DNA of 64,000 bases from Hydrogenothermaceae bacterium (GTDB lineage Bacteria; Aquificota; Aquificia; Aquificales; Hydrogenothermaceae): assembly GCA_026418455.1 (NCBI GenBank), contig JAOABH010000004.1, positions 62,001 to 126,000 on the forward strand, in the 5' to 3' direction. The notes below the pieces were generated by a model that worked only from the letters and a program-made list of their open reading frames with translations, did not search any database and was not told the DNA's origin. Shown one piece after another: positions 49,654 through 62,606 of the stretch (within the stretch, counting starts at the first letter, position 1; every line of letters begins with the position of its first letter). The position numbers were made by a program, and so were the translations under genes.

Positions 49654-52600
49654 ATGATAAGAACAACAAGAAGAAACTTTTTAAAAGGAACAGCTGCGGT
49701 TGTTGGTGGTGCAGCTTTAGCAAAGGGTGTGTTTGAGAAAACCCAAGCGGATAATAAAGTTGCAAACAATCAAGAGTTAACATTCGAACCAAAACATTTA
49801 GATTACTATCCACCTTTTGAAAAGTGGAATGACTGGAAAGAACCTGCCGGAGATTACTGGAAAAAAGAAGGTGGAGCATTAAGAGATGGTGTAAAGCTGA
49901 TAAACTATATCATAGTTCCAACTGTATGTAATAACTGTGAAGCGGCTTGTGGTCTCACAGCTTGGATAGATAAAGATACCATGACTGTTAGAAAGTTTAT
50001 GGGTAATCCATTCCACAGTGGAAGTATGGGGAGAAACTGTGCAAAAGGCTATGCTGCTCTTGCTCAGATGTATGATCCAGACAGAATACCTTTCCCATTA
50101 AAGAGAGCTCCTGGTTCAAAGAGAGGAGAAAATAAATGGGTAAGGACAACATGGGAGGAAGCCCTTGAAACTATTGGAAAAAAGATGAGGGAAGTTTTAC
50201 AAAGAGGTGATGAAATATCTAAGAAACAGATAATGTACCAAGTTGGAAGACCCAATGAAAATGGTTTTCATGTAAGGAGAGTTGTTTGGAGTTGGGGAGT
50301 AGATGGAAGAAATACTCATACCAACATCTGCTCTTCAAACGGAAGATTTGGAAATATAGTCACCGTTGGAGATGACAGAACATCTCCTGATTTTGCAAAT
50401 TCAAGGTTGATAATCCTTGTATCTTCCCACGCAGCAGATGCAGGTCACTACTATCAACAACATGCAGGATATATTGCAGATGCAAGGGCAAAAGGTGCTA
50501 AGCTCGTTGTTATTGACCCACGAATGTCTAATTCTGCTGGAATGGCAGACCTCTGGATACCTGCATGGCCAGGAACTGAGGTAGCTATAAACCTTGCTAT
50601 GGTAAGCAGGTTAGTCAGAGAAGAAAAGTTCAATAAAAAATTTGTGGAAAGGTGGTTTAACTGGAAACAGTTTATATCTGATAAAGAGTATTTAAGTTAT
50701 CTAAAAGAAAAAGGATTTTTAACAGAGATACCTTCTGGAGATAGTTTTGATGATTTTGTTGCTGTTTTAAAGGATCTGTATAAAGATTACACATTTGAAT
50801 GGGCAGCTCAGGAAGCAAAAATACCAGTTAATATGCTTGATAAACTTTATGAGATGATACTTTGGGCAGGAGATAGGATAACACAGTATCATTGGAGAGC
50901 AGTTGCGGCTGGAAACAGAGGCGGTTGGATGGGTGCAGGTAGAACGGGAACTATGCTTATGGCATTTATGGGGGCTCTTGGTGGACCTGGTGGAACCGGT
51001 TGGTATAAATGGCATACAATCTCCTTAGGAGATAAGGGTGGCGATGCTTGTATGGCAGATACTCCTGAGCCTGTTAAAGCTTGGAATGAGCTTGAATGGC
51101 CTCCTGAATGGCCAATGTCTTCTTATGAGCTTAGCTACCTACTACCACATCTTCTTATGGATGACGAATGGAGAAACAGGTGGAAAGAGAAGGGTCTAAA
51201 AATTCCTGATAAAGTTGAAGTATGGTTTTCAAGAATATACAACCCTGTATGGATAAATCCTGATGGATTTAGATGGGTAGAAGCTCTTAAAGATGAAGAT
51301 AAATTTGGTTTAACTATCTATATGTCTCCAAACTGGGCTGAAACAGCGTTTTACTGTGACTATATTTTACCAATGGGACTTGCTGGAGAGAGACACGACC
51401 AACATTCAGAACCTACAAAACCTGAGAAATGGACTGGATTTAGGCAACCTGTATTAAGAGTTGCTCTTCAAAAGATGGGCTGGAAACCAAACGATCCTGC
51501 TAAAGCAACATTGGAAGCTCATAAAAAAGTTGGTCTTGGAGAGATATGGGAGGAGGATGAGTTCTTTGTAAATCTTGCCTTTGCTATAGACCCAGATGGT
51601 TCTCTTGGAATAAAAAAATACTGGGAGTCTAAAAATAATCCAGGTAAACCTGTTACTATGGAAGAGTATTACAATGCTGCATTCTCAAAATTACCTAAGT
51701 TGTCTCAATTATGTCAAGAGATGGGAATAACTCCTTATGAGTATATGAGGGACAGAGGTGCATGGACAGAAGCTACAGATGTTTATAATGTCCATGAGAA
51801 ACCATTACCTTACGATCCAGATAAGAGAGCATATCAGTATGATGGAAAGTGGATACCGGAAAGTGAGATAAAGATAGAGGGAGATCTTGTCTACCATATA
51901 GAAGAAGGTGGTAAAAAACATAAGATAGGTGTGGTAAAAGATGGAAAAATAGTCAATGGTTGGAAAACACCTTCTGGACATATTGAGTTTTACTCAAAAA
52001 CATTAAAAGATTGGAAGTGGCCTGAGTATGCTATACCTATCTATCCGAGAAATAAGGAAGAGAGGAAACAGATGATACACATCGTTTCTCAAGTCCATCA
52101 CGACTATATGACTGAGCCAAATGCCTTTGCTTTAAATCCAATATTTAGACTACCTTATTTAGTCCATACCAGATCTGTAAATGCTAAGTGGCTTATGGAG
52201 ATTGGGCAGAACCATAACCCACTCTGGATATATGAAAAAGATGCTCAGAGATTAGGTATAAAGAGAGGAGATGCTGTAAAAGTTAGGGTTGTAGATACAT
52301 TGACAGGTATAGAAACTGGATACTTTGTAGCTATGGCTGTACCTACACAGGCAACAAGACCTGGGGTAGTTGCTTGCTCTCACCATAACGGAAGATGGAG
52401 AATTATAAACGAAGTTAAGATAGATGGATTTGAACATGAACTTGGTGTAATGAGAATGGGAAGTGTGCTTGTAGATATAAAATCCCAAAACGGTAAATAC
52501 TTTATGAGAACAAAGGAAGGTGTGAAACCTTTCAGATCTTGGCAGTTTCCTGAGTTTAACAAAGATACAGAACAGATATGGTGGAAAGGGACTACTGGAG

Positions 52601-52869
52601 TGTTCCAAAATGCTGTGTTCCCTGCAAACCCTGACCCACTTTCCGGAATGCACTGTTGGCATAAGAAAGTCCTTATAGAAAAGGCAGGTCCTGAAGATAA
52701 GATAGGAGATATTTTCGTTGACATAAACAAAACCTGGGAAGTTTATAGAGCTTGGAGAGATCAACTTACAAGACCTGCTCCGGGACCAGACAATCTCAGA
52801 AGACCAAAATGGATGCCAAGACCTTGGTTCCCTATTGCTGACGAATACTGGAAATTCCCATCTGCTTAA
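49654..52869 (+). CDS. Psr/Sre/Ttr-type molybdoenzyme catalytic subunit
   Basis: A 1071-residue Tat-exported (TRRNFLKG) Mo-bis-MGD enzyme. The first cluster is C92-x2-C95-x3-C99 and C129 (all cysteine, so not type II); the predicted Mo ligand is C226 in TNICSSNG. Large size (over 1000) resembles sulfur reductase SreA, tetrathionate reductase TtrA, SoeA or arsenate-type enzymes. Gene order (beta, anchor, alpha) is that of ttrBCA, but the TorD-like and polyferredoxin genes downstream match the sre cluster of sulfur-reducing thermophiles. I favour sulfur/polysulfide reductase; substrate is not proven. A terminator follows at 52879. Confidence 0.85.
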   Translation: MIRTTRRNFLKGTAAVVGGAALAKGVFEKTQADNKVANNQELTFEPKHLDYYPPFEKWNDWKEPAGDYWKKEGGALRDGVKLINYIIVPTVCNNCEAACGLTAWIDKDTMTVRKFMGNPFHSGSMGRNCAKGYAALAQMYDPDRIPFPLKRAPGSKRGENKWVRTTWEEALETIGKKMREVLQRGDEISKKQIMYQVGRPNENGFHVRRVVWSWGVDGRNTHTNICSSNGRFGNIVTVGDDRTSPDFANSRLIILVSSHAADAGHYYQQHAGYIADARAKGAKLVVIDPRMSNSAGMADLWIPAWPGTEVAINLAMVSRLVREEKFNKKFVERWFNWKQFISDKEYLSYLKEKGFLTEIPSGDSFDDFVAVLKDLYKDYTFEWAAQEAKIPVNMLDKLYEMILWAGDRITQYHWRAVAAGNRGGWMGAGRTGTMLMAFMGALGGPGGTGWYKWHTISLGDKGGDACMADTPEPVKAWNELEWPPEWPMSSYELSYLLPHLLMDDEWRNRWKEKGLKIPDKVEVWFSRIYNPVWINPDGFRWVEALKDEDKFGLTIYMSPNWAETAFYCDYILPMGLAGERHDQHSEPTKPEKWTGFRQPVLRVALQKMGWKPNDPAKATLEAHKKVGLGEIWEEDEFFVNLAFAIDPDGSLGIKKYWESKNNPGKPVTMEEYYNAAFSKLPKLSQLCQEMGITPYEYMRDRGAWTEATDVYNVHEKPLPYDPDKRAYQYDGKWIPESEIKIEGDLVYHIEEGGKKHKIGVVKDGKIVNGWKTPSGHIEFYSKTLKDWKWPEYAIPIYPRNKEERKQMIHIVSQVHHDYMTEPNAFALNPIFRLPYLVHTRSVNAKWLMEIGQNHNPLWIYEKDAQRLGIKRGDAVKVRVVDTLTGIETGYFVAMAVPTQATRPGVVACSHHNGRWRIINEVKIDGFEHELGVMRMGSVLVDIKSQNGKYFMRTKEGVKPFRSWQFPEFNKDTEQIWWKGTTGVFQNAVFPANPDPLSGMHCWHKKVLIEKAGPEDKIGDIFVDINKTWEVYRAWRDQLTRPAPGPDNLRRPKWMPRPWFPIADEYWKFPSA

Positions 52870-52878
52870 TATCAGATT

Positions 52879-52900
52879 GGCGGGTTGAAAAATACCCGCC
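52879..52900 (+). terminator. Terminator after the large molybdoenzyme subunit
   Basis: GGCGGGT/ACCCGCC with an 8-base loop and TTTCATTT behind. Chaperone and polyferredoxin genes lie beyond it and would be expressed at a lower level by read-through. Confidence 0.75.
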
Positions 52901-52949
52901 TTTCATTTATATTAAATCTACTTAAAACTTTTATATCCCGAGGTAATAG

Positions 52950-53588
52950 ATGAACGAAAAAATCCGAGAGAATCAAGCCCGTCAGAATATGTATGGTTTT
53001 TTATCAAGGTTACTTATTGAGGAAGTAGATTACAATCTTCTTGAGAATATAAAAAATACACCATCTCTCATGGAGCTTTTCCCAAACACTGCAAACTGGG
53101 AAACTTTTCTACAAAAAGATACAAAATCTCTTATAGATGAAGAACTAAATGTTGATTTCACAACAGTTTTTCTTCTTAATGTATATCCATACGAATCTGT
53201 ATTTATGAACGATGAAGGACATATAAATCCATCCCTTACAAATCCAACTTTACAGTTTTATCTGGAACATGGTTATGAAATAGACCTAAACAAAACGAGG
53301 GTTTTATCTCCGGATCATATAGCTGTTGAGATGGAATTCATGATAACTCTTATAAATGACCAACTTAATGCTTACAGTATGTTTAATAAAGAAGAAGAGA
53401 TTAAAGCTCTTCAAACCCAGAAAGAGTTTATGGAGAAACATCTGCTTAAATGGGGTGTTATCTATCTACTTGCAGCAAGGGATATGGCTGAAACACCTTT
53501 TTATTATGATTTGTGTCAAACTACTCTTGAATTTTTACTTTCTGATTACGAATACATAGTTTCTCAACTTCAAGAGGTAACAGTTTAA
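52950..53588 (+). CDS. TorD/DmsD-family chaperone for the molybdoenzyme
   Basis: A 212-residue all-helical cytosolic protein of the TorD/NarJ superfamily: NEKIRENQARQNMYGFLSRLL opening (in pieces), a central LSPDHIAVEMEFM (the EPxDH-like motif) and RDMAETPFYYDLCQTTLEFL. Such proteins hold the apo-enzyme and guard its Tat signal until cofactor insertion. The neighbours identify the large Mo subunit as its client. The type II enzyme upstream has no chaperone of its own and might share it. The ribosome site CCCGAGGT is moderate. Confidence 0.82.
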   Translation: MNEKIRENQARQNMYGFLSRLLIEEVDYNLLENIKNTPSLMELFPNTANWETFLQKDTKSLIDEELNVDFTTVFLLNVYPYESVFMNDEGHINPSLTNPTLQFYLEHGYEIDLNKTRVLSPDHIAVEMEFMITLINDQLNAYSMFNKEEEIKALQTQKEFMEKHLLKWGVIYLLAARDMAETPFYYDLCQTTLEFLLSDYEYIVSQLQEVTV

Positions 53589-53589
53589 G

Positions 53590-54672
53590 ATGTCTGATAA
53601 AATAAAGTTTGATATATATTCATGTGTTAGAGTATATTACAGATACGCAGACTGTAATAAGTGTGTTGAAGTTTGCCCAGTAGATGCTGTTTATATAGAT
53701 AATGACAAAGTCCATCTGAATGGAGAAAAATGTATAGATTGTGGAGCTTGTGTAGGAAACTGCCCTACAGAAAGTTTTACCCTAAATGGTTTTAATCCAA
53801 ATGAGTTTGTTGAAAGTTTTTCAAAAGTAGAAGAAAATCTAATATCCTGTAAATTGAATGTTCCCTGTCTGTCTACGTTAAGTCCTGAACATTTATCTAC
53901 TGTTGTTTTAAGTAAGAAAGATGATATTATCTTAGATATTGGACACTGTCAGAACTGCAGTATAGGAAAACAGTTGAATATTATAAATTCAAATGTAGAT
54001 ATGGCTAACTATATACTTTCTTCCGTAGGTTTTTCAGGTAAAGTTAAGTTAGAAGATCTAAAGTATGAAAAACCAACTAAACAGGAAAATTCAAGAAGGT
54101 CCATACTTAAACTTTTTGCGAAGAAGACTGTAGCTTTAGCCTTTTGGACTGTTGAAGATAAGTTACCTTTAACAGAAGAGGAAAAAGAGGAGAGAGATTT
54201 TAAAAATATAGTTTCTGAAAAGGTAGTTCCCCAGAAAAGAGTTAGTTTTATAGAGGCATTATCATCTTATGGATTTGATGAAAACAGCTACTTTGAAGTT
54301 GATAAAATAAATTTCACATCTGATAAATGGATTGATAACAATTTATGTACAAACTGTGGAATATGTGGAAATATATGTCCTACAGGAGCTATAACAAATA
54401 GTGATGATAGATTGAAAGTTCTATTTAACCCTTCTATCTGTATAAAATGTAGAATATGTCATGATATATGTCCGGAGAAATGTTTACATCTTCAGGACAA
54501 ACTTTATGTAGAAGATTTTGTCTCAAATAAATATAAGATTCTGTCAACCCATGTTATGATACCTTGTAGTGAATGTCTTGTGCCTTTCTCCTATAAAGGA
54601 GATACAACTGTATGTCCAAGATGTAGACAGCTTGAAGATGAACTTAAAGAGCTTTTAAAAATAGGAGATTAA
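53590..54672 (+). CDS. Multi-cluster ferredoxin-like protein (SreD-like)
   Basis: A 360-residue soluble protein with at least four [4Fe-4S]-type cysteine groups: two near the N-terminus (CNKCVEVCP and CIDCGACVGNCP, residues 23-58), two near the C-terminus (CTNCGICGNICP and CIKCRICHDICP, about 255-300), and a final zinc-ribbon-like C-x2-C ... C-x2-C (CSECLVP, CPRCR). A middle region has additional isolated cysteines. Its place after a TorD-like gene matches the polyferredoxin gene of sre clusters. It may help assembly or supply electrons in the cytoplasm. Stop codons overlap with the convergent BioC gene. Confidence 0.75.
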   Translation: MSDKIKFDIYSCVRVYYRYADCNKCVEVCPVDAVYIDNDKVHLNGEKCIDCGACVGNCPTESFTLNGFNPNEFVESFSKVEENLISCKLNVPCLSTLSPEHLSTVVLSKKDDIILDIGHCQNCSIGKQLNIINSNVDMANYILSSVGFSGKVKLEDLKYEKPTKQENSRRSILKLFAKKTVALAFWTVEDKLPLTEEEKEERDFKNIVSEKVVPQKRVSFIEALSSYGFDENSYFEVDKINFTSDKWIDNNLCTNCGICGNICPTGAITNSDDRLKVLFNPSICIKCRICHDICPEKCLHLQDKLYVEDFVSNKYKILSTHVMIPCSECLVPFSYKGDTTVCPRCRQLEDELKELLKIGD

Positions 54673-55391
54673 CTTTTTTGTGCTTCTATAAAAAGTAAGT
54701 TAAAGTTTAATATGGTTGGACTTTTATACTCAGAGAAAGACTTTACAATCTGTAGTTTTTCTCCCATTGATAAATCTTTTGGATTAACTGCCGTTCCTGT
54801 TCTGTGTAAATGTTTTAGAAGAGACATTCCATCTTCAAACATGAGTTTAAACTCTTTTTTAAAAAGCTCTCTTATCTTAAAATATTCTTTGGCTTTTTCT
54901 ATAACTTCTTCTTCAGTTGGAAATTCAAAAAAAGTCTTCCCTAAGATATCCTCAATAGCCTTTAAGCTTCCAACGACAGGAATAGAGAATAATATATATC
55001 CCCCATTTTTTAAAACTCTGTCTATCTCCTGAAATGATATGTTTAAGTCGGTCCAATGTAAACTGAAATTTGATAAACAGTAATCAAAGATTTCATCTTT
55101 AAATGGCAGATTTTCTATATCTCCTACAACAGCTTTATAACCTTTCTTTTTACAGATATCAACCATAGATTTAGATATATCTACACTTATGATATCTTTA
55201 GTCGGAAGATAATCCTTTATAAAACATGTTCCACTTCCACAATCTAAACCTAAGCCGGAGTAATCTTTTGCTATATCAGAGATAATTTTTGCACTCTCTT
55301 TTTGTATAACAGCATCTTCTTCATAACTTTTACAAGCTTTTGAAAACGATAATCTGTAAAGATTTTTTAAGTTACTCACCGAGAAGCTCAA
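54669..55391 (-). CDS. bioC: SAM-dependent methyltransferase, BioC-like
   Basis: A 240-residue class I methyltransferase with SAM motif LGLDCGSGTC (near residue 47) and GDIENLPF, SNFSLHWTDLN, typical of malonyl-ACP O-methyltransferase BioC. BioC disguises malonyl-ACP so that fatty-acid synthesis can build pimeloyl-ACP methyl ester. It overlaps the hydrolase gene upstream by 20 bases, which suits a BioC/BioH pair. Other methyltransferases (ubiquinone/tRNA types) are less likely given the context. Confidence 0.75.
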   Translation of the reverse strand: MSFSVSNLKNLYRLSFSKACKSYEEDAVIQKESAKIISDIAKDYSGLGLDCGSGTCFIKDYLPTKDIISVDISKSMVDICKKKGYKAVVGDIENLPFKDEIFDYCLSNFSLHWTDLNISFQEIDRVLKNGGYILFSIPVVGSLKAIEDILGKTFFEFPTEEEVIEKAKEYFKIRELFKKEFKLMFEDGMSLLKHLHRTGTAVNPKDLSMGEKLQIVKSFSEYKSPTILNFNLLFIEAQKS

Positions 55392-56013
55392 AAATATCCC
55401 ACTCTATAAAAGGTATATGATGAGAGTTTAGTAAAATCACTTCACTATCTTTAATTTTTTTCTTACAAAACAGTGCTGCATTCATGTTTACTATTTTATC
55501 ATTTATTCCGTGGATTATAAATGTTTTCTGTCTTAAATCTTCTATAATATCAGACAAGTCAGTATTTATATAATCTTTAAGAAGTTCTATGGAACCTCTT
55601 TTATCTGGTAAAGGACAGTTAAACTCTTTTTCACCGGCTGTTTTTCTAAAATTAAAAACCGTATTTTCAAAATCCTTGTTAAGGTTATACATAAAAGCTC
55701 TTACAGTTTTTGGGTCACTACCAAGGTTTTCATCGTTAAATTTTGGACTAAATCCAACAAGTATAAGATTCTTAACATTTGGATTTTGTAGTGCTGTTAA
55801 TACTGCAATGGTTGACCCTAAAGACCAACCTACTATTGTAGTCGGTTCCGTTAAGCTGTCAGATATTTTTTTTACATACTCATTAATTGAGTTATAACTT
55901 TCCCTACTTTCTCCGTGAAATGGTAAATCTAAAAATACGGCATTATCTATATAAAAGTAATCTTTCCATATATTTTTTGAGAACCCCCAGCCGTGAATAA
56001 ACACAGTTTTCAC
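55372..56013 (-). CDS. Alpha/beta hydrolase, BioH-like
   Basis: A 213-residue hydrolase. Nucleophile elbow GWSLGS (serine near residue 67), oxyanion segment HGWGFSKNIW near residue 8, a catalytic aspartate region GINDKIVN (about 172) and histidine in NSHHIPFI (about 195). BioH and its analogues (BioG, BioK, BioV) demethylate pimeloyl-ACP methyl ester; they are diverse in sequence, so the symbol is left open. Position next to bioC and bioW makes this role likely. ATGA overlap with bioW upstream. Confidence 0.72.
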   Translation of the reverse strand: MKTVFIHGWGFSKNIWKDYFYIDNAVFLDLPFHGESRESYNSINEYVKKISDSLTEPTTIVGWSLGSTIAVLTALQNPNVKNLILVGFSPKFNDENLGSDPKTVRAFMYNLNKDFENTVFNFRKTAGEKEFNCPLPDKRGSIELLKDYINTDLSDIIEDLRQKTFIIHGINDKIVNMNAALFCKKKIKDSEVILLNSHHIPFIEWDIFELLGE

Positions 56014-56750
56014 TTTATTTCCCCCAAATCTTTGATTAAGAAACTTCTCTTCTCTAAGTAGTCATATAATTTTACCAAATCTGTGTTGTTTTTTACAAAG
56101 TATATCCTTCCTCCTTTTTGATTTCCATTTTCTTTTAAAGGTGTTATCCGAATGTATCTATCTTTTAATGCTACATAGCCAGTTATGTAATCTGGATCAT
56201 CAGATATACAGTATTCTGCCAAGATATATTCAGATTTTAAATTCTTTGTTGCTAATGCAAGAGCATCTACAGTTCTAAATGTGTATCCTCTCTTTGAAAG
56301 CTCTTTTTCTATATCTTCTCTATTTTCAAAATCTATATTTGTGGTTCTGATTCCTCTCTCTCTATCTATCTCTACTCTCTCTCCATTTTGATTTACTATC
56401 ATAGCTCCTCTCATAACTTCTCCCGATGGTGAAGCTCCTCTGTGTATAATGTCTATGTATTGTTTTACAGTCTGTTTGTCAATGCCAGTTTCCCTGCTTA
56501 TTATCTCTACAGCAAAGGAGTTTGCGGACATATAGTCCTCAAAAATAAAGTTTTCTATATCTAAACTTTTCTCTATGTAATCTATCTCCCTTATCTTTTC
56601 TACTTTTATATTTAAGAAATCGTAGATGTTAGGTCTCTTTATGAGTTGATTAACTGTATTTTCCACTTTACTTTCTTCTACTATCCTCTCTCCCCCTGAT
56701 ATGTGTTTTCCTTCAAAGGAAGCTCTCATCTTGATGCTGAAATATCTCAT
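56010..56750 (-). CDS. bioW: 6-carboxyhexanoate-CoA ligase (pimeloyl-CoA synthetase, BioW)
   Basis: A 246-residue protein with the BioW N-terminal signature FSIKMRASFEGKHISGGERI (residues 4-20 in pieces), GIDKQTVKQYIDIIHRGASPSGEVMRGAM and the RERGIRTTNID segment around residue 140. BioW makes pimeloyl-CoA from free pimelate and ATP. It is normally the alternative to a BioC-BioH route, yet here lies in the same coupled operon. The ATG overlaps the stop of the thioesterase (ATGA). Confidence 0.88.
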   Translation of the reverse strand: MRYFSIKMRASFEGKHISGGERIVEESKVENTVNQLIKRPNIYDFLNIKVEKIREIDYIEKSLDIENFIFEDYMSANSFAVEIISRETGIDKQTVKQYIDIIHRGASPSGEVMRGAMIVNQNGERVEIDRERGIRTTNIDFENREDIEKELSKRGYTFRTVDALALATKNLKSEYILAEYCISDDPDYITGYVALKDRYIRITPLKENGNQKGGRIYFVKNNTDLVKLYDYLEKRSFLIKDLGEIK

Positions 56751-57136
56751 CTTTCAAGAACGTGTTTATCAAGAGAGTAACATTTAAACTCTCCCTCAAA
56801 AACTTTCTCTTCTCCTTTGAACCCCTCTACTTTTACAGTTGATTTTATTCCTTCTGTCAGAATTACCTCACTTTTAAAAATTATCTCATCTCCAACTTTT
56901 ACAGGTTTTATAAATCTAACAGAAGATGAGCCTAATACAACGTTAGGATGATTAACCGTTATCATTGCAAGGTAGTCCGCTGCAGAGAATATGAAACCTC
57001 CATGTATAAGTCCTTTCTCATCTGCAACCATATCTTCTGTTGTTCTAAGTAAAAGTTCTCCCTTCTGTCCTTCTGTTATACTTATCGGAGTTCCATTTAA
57101 TTTTTGATTTATTTTAAGATGTGTTTTTATCTGCAT
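56747..57136 (-). CDS. Hotdog-fold acyl thioesterase (PaaI-like)
   Basis: A 129-residue single hotdog domain with GLIHGGFIFSAADYLA (about residue 38), which matches the helix of the 4HBT/PaaI family, and strands GSSSVRFIKPVKVGDEI. Substrate unknown. Its tight coupling to bioW suggests release of a pimeloyl or related acyl group from a thioester, giving BioW its free acid (inference). One base separates it from the tsaC/sua5 gene. Confidence 0.75.
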   Translation of the reverse strand: MQIKTHLKINQKLNGTPISITEGQKGELLLRTTEDMVADEKGLIHGGFIFSAADYLAMITVNHPNVVLGSSSVRFIKPVKVGDEIIFKSEVILTEGIKSTVKVEGFKGEEKVFEGEFKCYSLDKHVLER

Positions 57137-57137
57137 T

Positions 57138-57749
57138 TTATAACACCTCTAATTTTTTACTTCCATGTCTTACTATCTTAACTTTTCCATTTTCTGTCTC
57201 TACTATGGTTGAAGGTATATTATTTATCACTTCTCCTCTGTTTATATATAAATCAATTTTATCTGAGAAGTAATTTATGGCTTCTTCTATATTTTTTGCA
57301 GGTTCAAGTCCTGAAGGATTACAACTTGGTGCTACAACTGGTCTGTTTAGTTCTTTTAGAAATTTTAAAAATTCATGATCATCTGGAATTCTGAATGCAA
57401 GTTTTTTTGTTCCTCTATGTAGATACTCAAACTTTTCCGGATTTTCAACTTTAAGGATAACCGTTATACCCTTTGTAGATAAAATTTTTCTGGCTTTATC
57501 ATTTACAGAAACATTGAATTTTTCAAGACAGTCTAAATCTGGAATCAGTATTATGAAGGGTTTGTCCAGTTCCCTCTCTTTTATATTGTATATTTTCTCT
57601 ACACTTTCTGGATTAAATGCATCTGCTAATATTCCATAAATTGTATCAGTTTTAGTTGCCACCAATCCACCATTTTTTATAACTTCTATACCATCTTGCA
57701 ATCTATCTGATATTTTAATATTGGTGTTCTTTCCCTGGAAAGACTCCAT
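57138..57749 (-). CDS. tsaC: Threonylcarbamoyl-AMP synthase (Sua5/YrdC/TsaC)
   Basis: A 203-residue YrdC-domain protein that makes threonylcarbamoyl-AMP for t6A37 in ANN-decoding tRNAs. Visible: KNGGLVATKTDTIYGILADAF (about residue 25 on, in pieces), KERELDKPFIILI, and RPVVAPSCNPSGLEPA near 130. It has no C-terminal Sua5 extension, so it is the short TsaC type. The ATG lies inside the 3' end of panB (35-base overlap), with a GGGAGAAG ribosome site. Confidence 0.88.
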   Translation of the reverse strand: MESFQGKNTNIKISDRLQDGIEVIKNGGLVATKTDTIYGILADAFNPESVEKIYNIKERELDKPFIILIPDLDCLEKFNVSVNDKARKILSTKGITVILKVENPEKFEYLHRGTKKLAFRIPDDHEFLKFLKELNRPVVAPSCNPSGLEPAKNIEEAINYFSDKIDLYINRGEVINNIPSTIVETENGKVKIVRHGSKKLEVL

Positions 57750-58503
57750 TTTCCACTTCTCCCTTGTAGTTTTTTAAAGCTTCTTTTATGAGTTTTCCAG
57801 TTTCTAAATATCTTTTTACAAACTTTGGAGTTTTTTCAAAGATACCTATAAGATCGTGGAACACTAAAACCTGACCATCTGTATTACTACCAGCACCTAT
57901 TCCAATTGTAGGTATTGATATGGATTGTGTTATCTCCTTTGCTAAATCTGATGGGACAGCTTCAAGGACAATAGAGAAACATCCGGCTTTTTCAAGAGCT
58001 TTTGCATCTTCTATTAATCTCTCTCTATCTTTTTCTGTTTTTCCCTGAACTTTATAGCCACCAAGCTGATTTATAAACTGTGGAGTAAGTCCTATATGTC
58101 CCATAACAGGAATACCAACGGATACAAGCTTACTGATAATATCTGTCATCTGTCTTCCGCCTTCTATCTTAACGGCATTTGCTCCTGTTTCTTTCAAAAC
58201 TTTTCCGGCATTTCTCACAGCATCTTCTACAGACACATGATAACTCATAAATGGCATATCTACTATTATGAATGTGTTTGGAGCACCTCTTTTGACGGCT
58301 TTTGTGTGATATATCATCTCTTCCAATGTTACTGGTAAAGTTGAGTCATTTCCCTGTATAACCATAGAGAGAGAATCTCCTACTAATATTGCATCTATTC
58401 CAGCCTCTTCACACAGCTTGGCAGACCAATAGTCGTAGGTAGATATTACAGTTATCTTCTTTCCGGATTCTTTTGCTTTTAAAAATTCAGTTATACTTTT
58501 CAT
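57715..58503 (-). CDS. panB: 3-methyl-2-oxobutanoate hydroxymethyltransferase (PanB)
   Basis: A 262-residue TIM-barrel enzyme, first committed step of pantothenate and CoA synthesis. Motifs: VISTYDYWSAKL, DAILVGDSLSMVIQG, VKRGAPNTFIIVDMPFMSY (pieces near residue 70), ANAVKIEGG, GHIGLTPQ and the catalytic VLEAVPSDLAKEIT. Length is normal. It is 20 bases downstream of proA on the same strand and overlaps tsaC. Confidence 0.95.
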   Translation of the reverse strand: MKSITEFLKAKESGKKITVISTYDYWSAKLCEEAGIDAILVGDSLSMVIQGNDSTLPVTLEEMIYHTKAVKRGAPNTFIIVDMPFMSYHVSVEDAVRNAGKVLKETGANAVKIEGGRQMTDIISKLVSVGIPVMGHIGLTPQFINQLGGYKVQGKTEKDRERLIEDAKALEKAGCFSIVLEAVPSDLAKEITQSISIPTIGIGAGSNTDGQVLVFHDLIGIFEKTPKFVKRYLETGKLIKEALKNYKGEVENGVFPGKEHQY

Positions 58504-58523: not shown

Positions 58524-59864
58524 CTATTTTAAATTGCAAGATTCTGTGTTTATCTTTATCTCTTCATCTTTTGGTATTCCAATATTTTCCCTAAGTTGTC
58601 CATCTCCAAAAACTATAAATTTGGGAATTGTTAATTCTTTTAGAGCCATAGGACCTCTGGCATGTATTTTATCTGTAGATATTCCCATCTCTGCTCCAAG
58701 TCCAAACTCATTTCCATCTGTAAATCTTGTTGAAGCATTTATATATACTGCTGCACTATCAACTTCCTGAATAAACTTCATTCCTTTTGTATAGTTTTCC
58801 GTAACTATTGCATCAGAGTGATGAGATCCGTATTTCTCTATAAAATCTATCGCTTCATCAAGACTATCGACGACTTTAACTGCTATTATTAAATCTAAAA
58901 ACTCTTCATAGTAATCTTCCTCTTTTACCGGAACAATCTCCGTATCCTTTGCTTTTGGATGGTTTATAAGAAGATTATAACTATACTCATCACATCTCAT
59001 TTCAACACCAGCTTTTCCGTAATAATAGGCTATCTCAGGTAAAAATCTATCAGCTATACTTCTATGAACAACTAAGTTTTCTATTGCATTACATACAGAT
59101 GGTCTTTGGACTTTTGCGTTGTATGCTATGTTGAGAGCTTTTTCCATATCTGCTTCATCATCTATGTACAGGTTACAAACACCTTTGTAATGTTTTATAA
59201 CTGGGATTTTAGAGTTTTCCGCCACAGCCCTTATTAAACTCTCTCCTCCTCTTGGTATTGCTACATCTATTAAACCTTCAAGTTTAAGAAGCTCATTTAC
59301 AACAGATCTATCGGTAGTATCTACGAACATAACAGCATCTTCAGGAAAACAGGTCTCTCTGCAAGCCTGCTTTATTATATCAACCAGTATCCTATTTGAG
59401 TTTATTGTCTCACTTCCACCTTTTAGTATAACTGCATTTGATGATTTCATACAGAGAGATGCAGCCTCTATAGTCACATTTGGTCTTGCCTCGTAAATTA
59501 TGAGTATTACTCCAAGTGGAACCCTCATCTGTCCTACTTTTAAGCCGTTAGGTCTTGTCCACATATTTACAATCTCGCCTACAGGGTCAGGCAAAGCCGC
59601 CACATCTTTTAGAACTTGAACCATCTGTTTTATTCTCTTTTCATCAAGAGCAAGTCTATCAAGTAAAGCTTTGGAGTATCCTTTTTTCTCTGCATTTTCA
59701 AGGTCCTTTTTATTCTCTGCTATTATCTCTTCCTTTCTCTCTAAGAGAAGCTCTGCTGTCCTTAGTAATGTTTTATTCTTTATATCTGTTTTTAAGTTTG
59801 TTAATGTCCTTACAGTTTTTTTTGCTTTCTGTGCTAAATTTAAAGCATACTCTTTTGCCTGCAT
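58524..59864 (-). CDS. proA: Glutamate-5-semialdehyde dehydrogenase (ProA)
   Basis: A 446-residue NADPH-dependent aldehyde dehydrogenase-fold enzyme reducing gamma-glutamyl phosphate in proline synthesis. Catalytic cysteine is in QRPSVCNAIENLV (about residue 258). Other signatures: YEARPNVTIEAASL, LKGGSETINSN, IPRGGESLIRAV and GLGAEMGISTDKIHARGP. It has a roughly 30-residue C-terminal extension compared with the E. coli enzyme (417 aa). It starts three bases after the DUF4388 gene. Confidence 0.95.
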   Translation of the reverse strand: MQAKEYALNLAQKAKKTVRTLTNLKTDIKNKTLLRTAELLLERKEEIIAENKKDLENAEKKGYSKALLDRLALDEKRIKQMVQVLKDVAALPDPVGEIVNMWTRPNGLKVGQMRVPLGVILIIYEARPNVTIEAASLCMKSSNAVILKGGSETINSNRILVDIIKQACRETCFPEDAVMFVDTTDRSVVNELLKLEGLIDVAIPRGGESLIRAVAENSKIPVIKHYKGVCNLYIDDEADMEKALNIAYNAKVQRPSVCNAIENLVVHRSIADRFLPEIAYYYGKAGVEMRCDEYSYNLLINHPKAKDTEIVPVKEEDYYEEFLDLIIAVKVVDSLDEAIDFIEKYGSHHSDAIVTENYTKGMKFIQEVDSAAVYINASTRFTDGNEFGLGAEMGISTDKIHARGPMALKELTIPKFIVFGDGQLRENIGIPKDEEIKINTESCNLK

Positions 59865-60677: not shown

Positions 60678-62606
60678 ATGAAAAATATAAGAATTTTTGT
60701 TTCTATCTTATTTATGGTTTTACCTCTTGTAAGTTATGGAGAGGATATCGGAAAGATTCTATCTGAGTATGAAGAAGCTTCAGATATGTCTAATAAAACA
60801 AAAACCGAGAGTTTAGGACATTACACAGTGATAACAAGAAAAGAGCTTGATATAATGCAAGCTTATACCCTTTCCGATGTATTAAAATCTCTTAAATTAC
60901 ATACTTACATACCAAACAGGTTTGGTGTTTATCAGTTAACTTCTGCTGGAGCTTCTGTAGGATTAAACACTTCCTATAGGCTTTTCATAGATGATCATGA
61001 GGTAAGCTCTATACATACTGATAATCCTTTTTTGATATTTGATAGATATCCTCTTGATAACATAGATCATATAGAGATATATTATGGAGCTGGTGCTGTT
61101 AGAATCGGAAATGAACCCTCTTTAATAATCATTAAACTCTACACAAAAGAACCTTCACGGGAAAATGCTTCATTATTGAGAACATCTGTATCATCAAGGA
61201 AATATTACACATTAAGCTTTAATGATGCAAGGGTTATTAAAGGTATATCTTACAATCTCCTTGTAAGTAGGAGTTATGAAAACTTTCCTACTTATAGAAT
61301 ATCATCAACAGATTTAAGTAAAGATACAAAAAGAAACTATCTCTTTTTTAAGATAAACTATCAGGATACTTCTGTTGATGTTAGTTTTGCTGATGTGAAG
61401 AGAGACGCCTTCAGCGGTCTTGCGGTAGATCTTACTCCAACAATATCAAGAACCACATCTCAGGACTTTTATATAAATCTAACTCAAAAATTTTTAGAGG
61501 ATAAATCTTTAAAATTAAATTTATCAGCTGATATAAATAGGAGAGATGGAGAGTTTGCAAATGATTTAGTAGGTGGAGGTGTGTTTGTTACTTCGATTTA
61601 TCCTTATCCTGTAAATCCTTTACAGATACCAACATATTACTATGAAAAACGAAATCTCAACAAATACACTTTCTATATATCCAAGGAGTTTAAGACAGAA
61701 AAAAATGTGCTATTAATAGGCTCTTCATATAAGATTAAGGAAAATGATATAAAGTTTATTAAATATAAAACCTCTTTAGGAGATTACACACCGAATAAGC
61801 TGTCTGGATTTGATAAAGTTGATCTCTTTACAGCGTTTGTAGAAAACCAGTTTAACATAACAGATAAAAATCTGCTTTTTCTCTCTTTAAAGGTTGACCA
61901 TTATCATAGAAACGGAGGATATAAGGAGATTACAAACTACATAGCGAGAGCTGGCTTTGTATCATACTTAAATGACAATCTATACACAAAAGCTTTCATC
62001 ACAAGAACATATGTTCCTCCATCTTTCTTCGAAATTGAGATGTCAAAAAACGGTCAAGACCTTTCTTCAGAAAAGTTAAAAGGTTTAAGCTTTGAAACGG
62101 AGTATAAAAAAGATAACCATAAGCTAAATCTCTTTTATGGATACAGTGAGGCAAAAGATATGATCGTATTTTTTTCTTACTCCCAAAACTACAATAAAAC
62201 CCTAAAAGGACACTACTTCAGTTTAGATTATGAGTATAGATTTGACAGTAATAATAAGTTATCATTTAATCTTTTTAAAACATTTAGTAACATTGATACA
62301 ACCTTTTCAAGCGAAGATGGTGGATTTATTAAGCTGTTTAACTCTACCGATAAGTTTGATATATACAATGAGATTATTTATAGAAAAGGTTTTAAGGTGT
62401 ATGGGTACAAAGTTAATGACAGTTTTAACTATAATGTAGGAATTTCTTATAGATTAAAAAATGACTGGTTTGTTAAACTAAAAGGTGAAAATCTTTTAAA
62501 TAGTAGTCCTAAGGCTGTTTTTGTAATTCCTGTTCCACAACCTTCAGTAATCTCTTTGCCTTCTTACGACAGAAGAGTTATATTTAGTATTGAGAAGGTA
62601 TTTTAG
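60678..62606 (+). CDS. TonB-dependent receptor-like outer-membrane protein
   Basis: A 642-residue protein: signal peptide (cleavage near SYG, residue 21), plug domain with YTVITRKELDIMQAYTLSDVLKSL in pieces (about 48-75) and DNIDHIEIYYGAGAVRIG (about 125-143), then a beta barrel ending in RRVIFSIEKVF with terminal phenylalanine. No clear TonB box is seen in the mature N-terminus, so it may be a plug-barrel channel rather than a high-affinity siderophore receptor. The next genes (YfiR-like, GGDEF) suggest it works with c-di-GMP signalling. Confidence 0.8.
   Translation: MKNIRIFVSILFMVLPLVSYGEDIGKILSEYEEASDMSNKTKTESLGHYTVITRKELDIMQAYTLSDVLKSLKLHTYIPNRFGVYQLTSAGASVGLNTSYRLFIDDHEVSSIHTDNPFLIFDRYPLDNIDHIEIYYGAGAVRIGNEPSLIIIKLYTKEPSRENASLLRTSVSSRKYYTLSFNDARVIKGISYNLLVSRSYENFPTYRISSTDLSKDTKRNYLFFKINYQDTSVDVSFADVKRDAFSGLAVDLTPTISRTTSQDFYINLTQKFLEDKSLKLNLSADINRRDGEFANDLVGGGVFVTSIYPYPVNPLQIPTYYYEKRNLNKYTFYISKEFKTEKNVLLIGSSYKIKENDIKFIKYKTSLGDYTPNKLSGFDKVDLFTAFVENQFNITDKNLLFLSLKVDHYHRNGGYKEITNYIARAGFVSYLNDNLYTKAFITRTYVPPSFFEIEMSKNGQDLSSEKLKGLSFETEYKKDNHKLNLFYGYSEAKDMIVFFSYSQNYNKTLKGHYFSLDYEYRFDSNNKLSFNLFKTFSNIDTTFSSEDGGFIKLFNSTDKFDIYNEIIYRKGFKVYGYKVNDSFNYNVGISYRLKNDWFVKLKGENLLNSSPKAVFVIPVPQPSVISLPSYDRRVIFSIEKVF

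Follow-up and report, generated by a model that had tools for sequence, protein, structure and literature searches.

The window analysed here is a 64,000-nucleotide stretch of contig JAOABH010000004.1 (positions 62,001 to 126,000, forward strand) from a Hydrogenothermaceae bacterium of the phylum Aquificota, and it carries four overlapping genes for a hotdog-fold protein, BioW, BioH and BioC, which probably encode a single linear hybrid route leading through BioC and BioH to free pimelate and from there to BioW. The gene set is real and conserved, and known enzymes are combined in it in a way that has seldom been described. In the steps that we infer, BioC would methylate malonyl-acyl carrier protein (malonyl-ACP), which would be extended twice by type II fatty-acid synthesis to give methyl-pimeloyl-ACP. 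BioH would strip off the methyl ester, and the C7 chain would be released from ACP as free pimelate, with the hotdog protein as the likeliest enzyme for this in the window's genus and one neighbouring genus and BioH itself or another thioesterase elsewhere. BioW would then couple pimelate to coenzyme A (CoA) at the expense of adenosine triphosphate (ATP), after which a CoA-type BioF would begin the biotin rings, followed by BioA, BioD and BioB.

According to a 2024 review, it is not known for any strain, B. subtilis included, which route provides BioW with pimelic acid (PMC11089781). The linear route, if true, would supply this unexplained free pimelate, and the occurrence of BioC and BioH beside BioW in two lineages names candidate enzymes for its source, making the question testable with few proteins. 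The sorting of organisms as either BioC users or BioW users, for which a rule table is given in a genome-based vitamin survey (PMC4403557), is thereby put in question. Coexistence of BioC-BioH with BioW is already known from Desulfuromonas (PMC545781). As far as the searched open-access literature shows, what is added here is the arrangement in one operon, its parallel across the phylum and the reading as one pathway, and no proposal that the pimelate used by BioW comes from BioC-BioH was found in it.

Gene arrangement

The four genes are intact open reading frames without internal stops:

56747–57136, minus strand: hotdog-fold thioesterase-like protein, PH1136/FapR-domain-like, 129 amino acids (aa) (PF03061, FapR model, 1ixl, HGG....AD motif)
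56010–56750, minus strand: bioW, predicted pimeloyl-CoA synthetase, 246 aa (PF03744, NF002360, TIGR01204, AaBioW 5tv5)
55372–56013, minus strand: bioH, putative short-lid pimeloyl methyl ester esterase, 213 aa, GTG start (best model TIGR01738, triad, predicted fold)
54669–55391, minus strand: bioC, putative malonyl-ACP O-methyltransferase, 240 aa, TTG start (best model TIGR02072, motif residues, AbBioC 8x8i)

Successive genes overlap by 4 (hotdog/bioW), 4 (bioW/bioH) and 20 bases (bioH/bioC), as described in a first-pass annotation made from the DNA sequence. An in-frame GTG located four codons further on provides an alternative start for bioC, with which the overlap with bioH is 8 instead of 20 bases.

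Identity of BioW, BioC and BioH

BioW passed all curated cut-offs, scoring 247 bits with PF03744, 263.6 bits with NF002360 (cut-off 226) and 203.9 bits with TIGR01204 (cut-off 193.55), and was matched by the AaBioW structure 5tv5 with an E value of 1e-63. The pimelate-contact residues of AaBioW are given as Tyr188, Tyr200 and Arg202, with one of the tyrosines tied to pimelate specificity (PMC9544090). In an alignment with AaBioW, they correspond to Y188, Y199 and R201 of the window protein, which are invariant in 16 sequences. The gene product is a predicted pimeloyl-CoA synthetase, which would form pimeloyl-CoA in an ATP-dependent manner.

The identification of the methyltransferase as BioC, named as a point of possible refutation in the first-pass annotation, is supported by its best model, motif residues and gene context. 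The top NCBIfam model was TIGR02072 with 111.8 bits, followed by the other BioC model with 63 bits and the next one with 37 bits. This score lies under the curated cut-off of 184.95, which was reached by 0 of 121 genomes from across Aquificota (incomplete ones included), so that the shortfall is phylum-wide. All 20 rows from Aquificota, Desulfuromonadales and E. coli BioC have F16, Y23, Q30, S107 and W113 in common; these residues comprise the N-terminal F, Y and Q and the S....W after the S-adenosylmethionine site that are shared with the E. coli enzyme. The solved AbBioC structure 8x8i was recovered as a sequence match (E 8.7e-11). In the fold comparison, AbBioC ranked 18–20 (Z 19.8) amid many class I methyltransferases, so BioC was not singled out by fold.

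The assignment of the hydrolase to BioH has the same three lines of support. Its top model, TIGR01738, gave 75.2 bits, under a cut-off of 206.95 that was again reached by none of the 121 genomes. The triad S64-D172-H199 and W9 of the HGW motif, corresponding to S82, D207, H235 and W22 of E. coli BioH, are invariant in 20/20 rows. The predicted structure (predicted local distance difference test score 95.7) had E. coli BioH (4etw) as its top fold match (Z 27.5, 1.8 Å, 213 residues aligned), with another esterase and other alpha/beta hydrolases within 1 of it. The scores below the curated cut-offs, in the window and in all 121 genomes, would also be expected if the BioC- and BioH-like proteins had been repurposed and acted outside biotin synthesis. 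This is considered very improbable, given that BioC and BioH are the best models with clear gaps to the next, that catalytic and motif residues are invariant, that the two genes form an overlapping pair in 16 of 19 f2/f3 genomes, and that both co-occur with bioF and bioW.

The lid stretch of the window BioH comprises 57 residues versus 73. The lid arginines R138, R142, R155 and R159 of E. coli BioH are said to dock ACP (PMC9302846); at these sites, the window protein has N, N, a deletion and a deletion, and the segment with R155/R159 is absent in 17/17 Aquificota BioH rows. Such a loss would fit an inverted order of steps, in which a thioesterase would act first and set the monomethyl ester of pimelate free from ACP, leaving this ester to be hydrolysed by the short-lid BioH and the resulting pimelate to be activated by BioW. 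However, BioG and BioK, which are evolutionarily distinct from BioH, still replace it (PMC3494674), and the loss of docking arginines is therefore no proof of lost ACP substrates; moreover, BioH of Desulfuromonadales retains the longer lid and R159. The inverted order appears unlikely as an account of this operon. Since it represents one form of the linear route, the likelihoods given to these two readings and to the parallel arrangement discussed below overlap.

Occurrence and linkage in Aquificota

Among the 121 genomes, BioW was found in 111, BioC in 112, BioH in 107 and BioF in 107. In the 88 genomes of the class set as good by the tool, the counts were 86 (absent from G059 and G111), 85 (absent from G056, G083 and G111), 85 (absent from G056, G059 and G111) and 86 (absent from G061 and G072), respectively. 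From these absences it follows that BioW, BioC and BioH are jointly present in 84/88 good genomes and all four proteins in 82/88. The statement in the first-pass annotation that organisms normally have either BioC-BioH or BioW thus fails across the whole phylum, in addition to being contradicted by the 2004 report on Desulfuromonas (PMC545781). A cytochrome P450 (PF00067) was detected in 0/121 genomes, the window's own included, with a positive B. subtilis control, and hence no BioI was detected.

Gene linkage was surveyed in the 29 of 33 family genomes with BioW (G096, G106, G114 and G119 being left out). BioH adjoins BioW in 24 of these and BioH together with BioC in 16, so the adjacency of bioW, bioH and bioC is more than chance, and the grouping seen in the window, on which the first-pass reading depended, recurs in relatives. 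In f2/f3, 16 of the 19 genomes examined have BioH and BioC as an overlapping pair located apart from BioW.

Eleven of the 29 family genomes contain a frame of 116–121 aa (c8) between bioW and bioH that overlaps both (L039:4574-4924, plus strand; also L036, L042, L051 and others). The gap of ~360 bases that it occupies in several genera was considered as the site of a hidden thioesterase and rejected, as the c8 frame gave no significant match in Pfam, NCBIfam or PHROGs and provides no evidence for a role in release; in the genera concerned, it may represent an additional operon member.

G059 is the sole good genome that has BioC but lacks BioW, and BioF is present in it. Its bioC overlaps a gene for a 208-aa BioG-like esterase (both at L128:3398-4706, minus strand), a protein without any Pfam or NCBIfam match, which resembles BioG of Parabacteroides (E 4e-6 in a two-sequence comparison) and Persicobacter (0.002). 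Its BioF is 35% identical to that of the window, versus 48–66% for three other Aquificota. By these comparisons, G059 looks like an ordinary BioC-BioG genome.

The hotdog protein

The hotdog protein matched PF03061 with 34.7 bits, and its top NCBIfam model was FapR (the hotdog domain thereof) with 73.4 bits, under the cut-off of 183. PH1136 (PDB 1ixl) was matched over the whole chain (123 bits, E 5.9e-35), and Cj0977 and FapR were matched as well. With these proteins it shares the HGG....AD motif, of which H45-G46-G47 and D54, the latter presumably being catalytic, are invariant in 10 sequences. It differs from them in its coupling to bioW, which was observed in two genera: the hotdog gene adjoins bioW in 8/29 family genomes, which are all eight examined genomes of genera g1 and g4, and the coupling also holds in G026 and G053, where panB and sua5 do not immediately precede the two genes. 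A homologue was not found in 22 of the 88 good genomes of the phylum. A function as obligatory BioW partner was rejected on these grounds, the gene adjoining bioW in 8/29 and being undetected or unlinked elsewhere. The protein is one candidate enzyme for release at the window's locus and no general component of the route; for the window's genus and the one neighbouring genus, its coupling to bioW weakly supports it as the likeliest releasing thioesterase. Of the mixed route put forward in the first-pass annotation, the linear sequence from BioC/BioH through free pimelate to BioW is thus retained as the best reading, and the part that made the hotdog protein its dedicated release step has weakened.

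In L099, a frame of 327 aa next to bioW had been clustered as hotdog, for which its size does not fit; the true G028 hotdog match is located far away, and the frame was not used.

BioW loci outside Aquificota

Of the best 80 of 438 loci in a BioW scan, 21 were taken as non-Aquificota, and neighbouring genes were sought at them by tblastn with one set of Desulfuromonadales proteins. Within this sample, bioW, bioF, bioH and bioC lie in a row at 11/11 Desulfuromonadales/deltaproteobacterial loci, which constitutes an independent linkage of the same enzymes. BioH or BioC was found near BioW at 0/10 of the other loci (Firmicutes, Nitrospirae, Methanothermococcus and Acholeplasmataceae), one of which, L202, comprises just 3.5 kb. 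Two of the 11 Desulfuromonadales-type loci were scanned and gave 157–162 bits for BioH and 168–174 bits for BioC. The set of early enzymes is the same as in Aquificota, whereas the operon is unlike that of the window in having bioF inside, no hotdog gene and a long-lid BioH. In the 2004 paper, bioC-bioH and bioW of Desulfuromonas were read as two pathways, with a predicted BirA site before bioW (PMC545781). For Geobacter, that paper gives BioC-BioH and no BioW, and in Bacillus cereus bioH is reported to lie beside bioC (PMC3494674).

At several Firmicutes loci, a gene for a protein of 163–173 aa lies upstream of bioW and frequently overlaps it (L195:5505-6005, L208:5502-6005, L205:5493-6014 and L211:5507-5998, all plus strand). 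The protein resembles a membrane transport component, perhaps for the uptake of pimelate or biotin; no NCBIfam match was obtained for the two proteins tested.

BioF and the choice between one route and two

The later biotin genes, which had been left to be located in the first-pass annotation, are all present in the 1.54-Mb genome from which the window derives, at scattered positions (bioF at C8:116233, bioA at C3:344564, bioD at C5:31409 and bioB at C5:105641). The properties of BioF matter for the role of BioW: a BioF able to accept pimeloyl-ACP would make BioW redundant for synthesis, whereas with a BioF dependent on pimeloyl-CoA, BioC-BioH would be of no use by itself and BioW would be essential. 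B. subtilis BioF is reported to use pimeloyl-CoA only, and E. coli BioF to accept both thioesters with a strong preference for pimeloyl-ACP (PMC7645780). The window BioF is 45–46% identical to BioF of Alkaliphilus and Anaerovirgula versus 34% to that of E. coli. In a tree of 25 rows, the BioFs from genomes with BioW (Firmicutes, with a Bacillus among them; Aquificota; Desulfuromonadales) split from those of genomes without BioW (96/94); in a second tree with additional BioC-type rows and one BioZ-type row, the BioW-type split stood at 75/91. The BioFs of Piscirickettsia and G059, which formed long branches in the first tree, were omitted from the second, and hits from Pseudoalteromonas and Rubrobacter were omitted as lying outside biotin loci. 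Aquificota BioF is thus akin to the BioFs of BioW organisms and predicted to use CoA, a reading that is suggestive only because the labels partly follow taxonomy.

The two sets of enzymes could also serve parallel routes, with BioC-BioH delivering pimeloyl-ACP directly to BioF as in E. coli, BioW salvaging outside pimelate or serving in repair when pimelate is lost because pimeloyl-ACP has been hydrolysed by accident, and the operon being shared by way of a common regulon. This arrangement corresponds to the 2004 reading of Desulfuromonas (PMC545781) and is compatible with the acceptance of both thioesters by E. coli BioF (PMC7645780), with the retention of BioF in G059 and with the patchy linkage of the thioesterase. 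We regard it as possible, yet clearly the less probable account. Aquificota are mostly autotrophs, and BioW in 86/88 good genomes is above the expectation for a salvage gene in such organisms; in addition, the BioF of G059 stands apart from those of other Aquificota, and the BioFs of genomes with BioW, BioC and BioH group with those of BioW-only genomes. Because BioW is kept in 86/88 good genomes, the linear route is preferred over parallel ones.

Several observations nevertheless weigh against the linear route. Releasing a thioester and then remaking it with ATP looks wasteful. No thioesterase is consistently linked, the hotdog gene being elsewhere or undetected in most genomes with BioW, BioC and BioH and not found in the bioW-bioF-bioH-bioC operon of Desulfuromonadales. 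BioC and BioH score under their curated cut-offs, the three genes are all unlinked in f4 genomes (e.g. G001), and the BioF split tracks taxonomy in part and weakens with more taxa.

Relation to known pathways

The window's genome shares the BioC and BioH signature residues as well as bioF, bioA, bioD and bioB with the BioC-BioH pathway of E. coli, but differs from it in the coupled BioW, the short-lid BioH without the four ACP-docking arginines and a BioF that groups with the BioW type. With the BioI-BioW pathway of B. subtilis it has in common the pimelate-contact residues of BioW; derivation of free pimelate from fatty-acid synthesis, reported for that pathway (PMC7645780), would hold for the window too. 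Aquificota differ in having BioC and BioH and no P450/BioI.

As a tentative and rather doubtful extension, a hybrid pimelate route may have become fixed in both Aquificota and Desulfuromonadales, in which the BioC-primed C7 chain would be freed from ACP, in Aquificota perhaps still as the monomethyl ester, demethylated by a BioH that has given up the E. coli mode of ACP docking, and activated again by BioW as substrate for a BioF restricted to the CoA ester. On this view, the Firmicutes pathway with BioW alone may be what was left of the route after BioC and BioH had been lost.

Surrounding genes

The source organisms are hot-spring bacteria. In the window, the four biotin-linked genes form the end of a co-directional minus-strand run, DUF4388-proA-panB-sua5-hotdog-bioW-bioH-bioC, with successive gaps of 3, 20, -35, 1, -4, -4 and -20 bases. 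Three of the upstream genes were assigned by models above their cut-offs:

57138–57749, minus strand: sua5-type threonylcarbamoyladenylate synthase (TIGR00057, 156.5 bits)
57715–58503, minus strand: panB, ketopantoate hydroxymethyltransferase of the CoA precursor pathway (TIGR00222, 370.8 bits)
58524–59864, minus strand: proA (TIGR00407, 492 bits)

We know of no link between the sua5-type gene and biotin. The 3' end of bioC faces a convergent pair of genes for a nitrate-reductase-delta-like chaperone and a ferredoxin-type protein. These belong to a plus-strand group (49654–54672) that begins with a gene for a 1071-aa molybdopterin oxidoreductase-like protein, the start of which is twin-arginine-like. 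At 60678–62606 on the plus strand, and divergent from DUF4388, lies a gene for a 642-aa protein that resembles a TonB-dependent outer-membrane receptor as judged by eye only.

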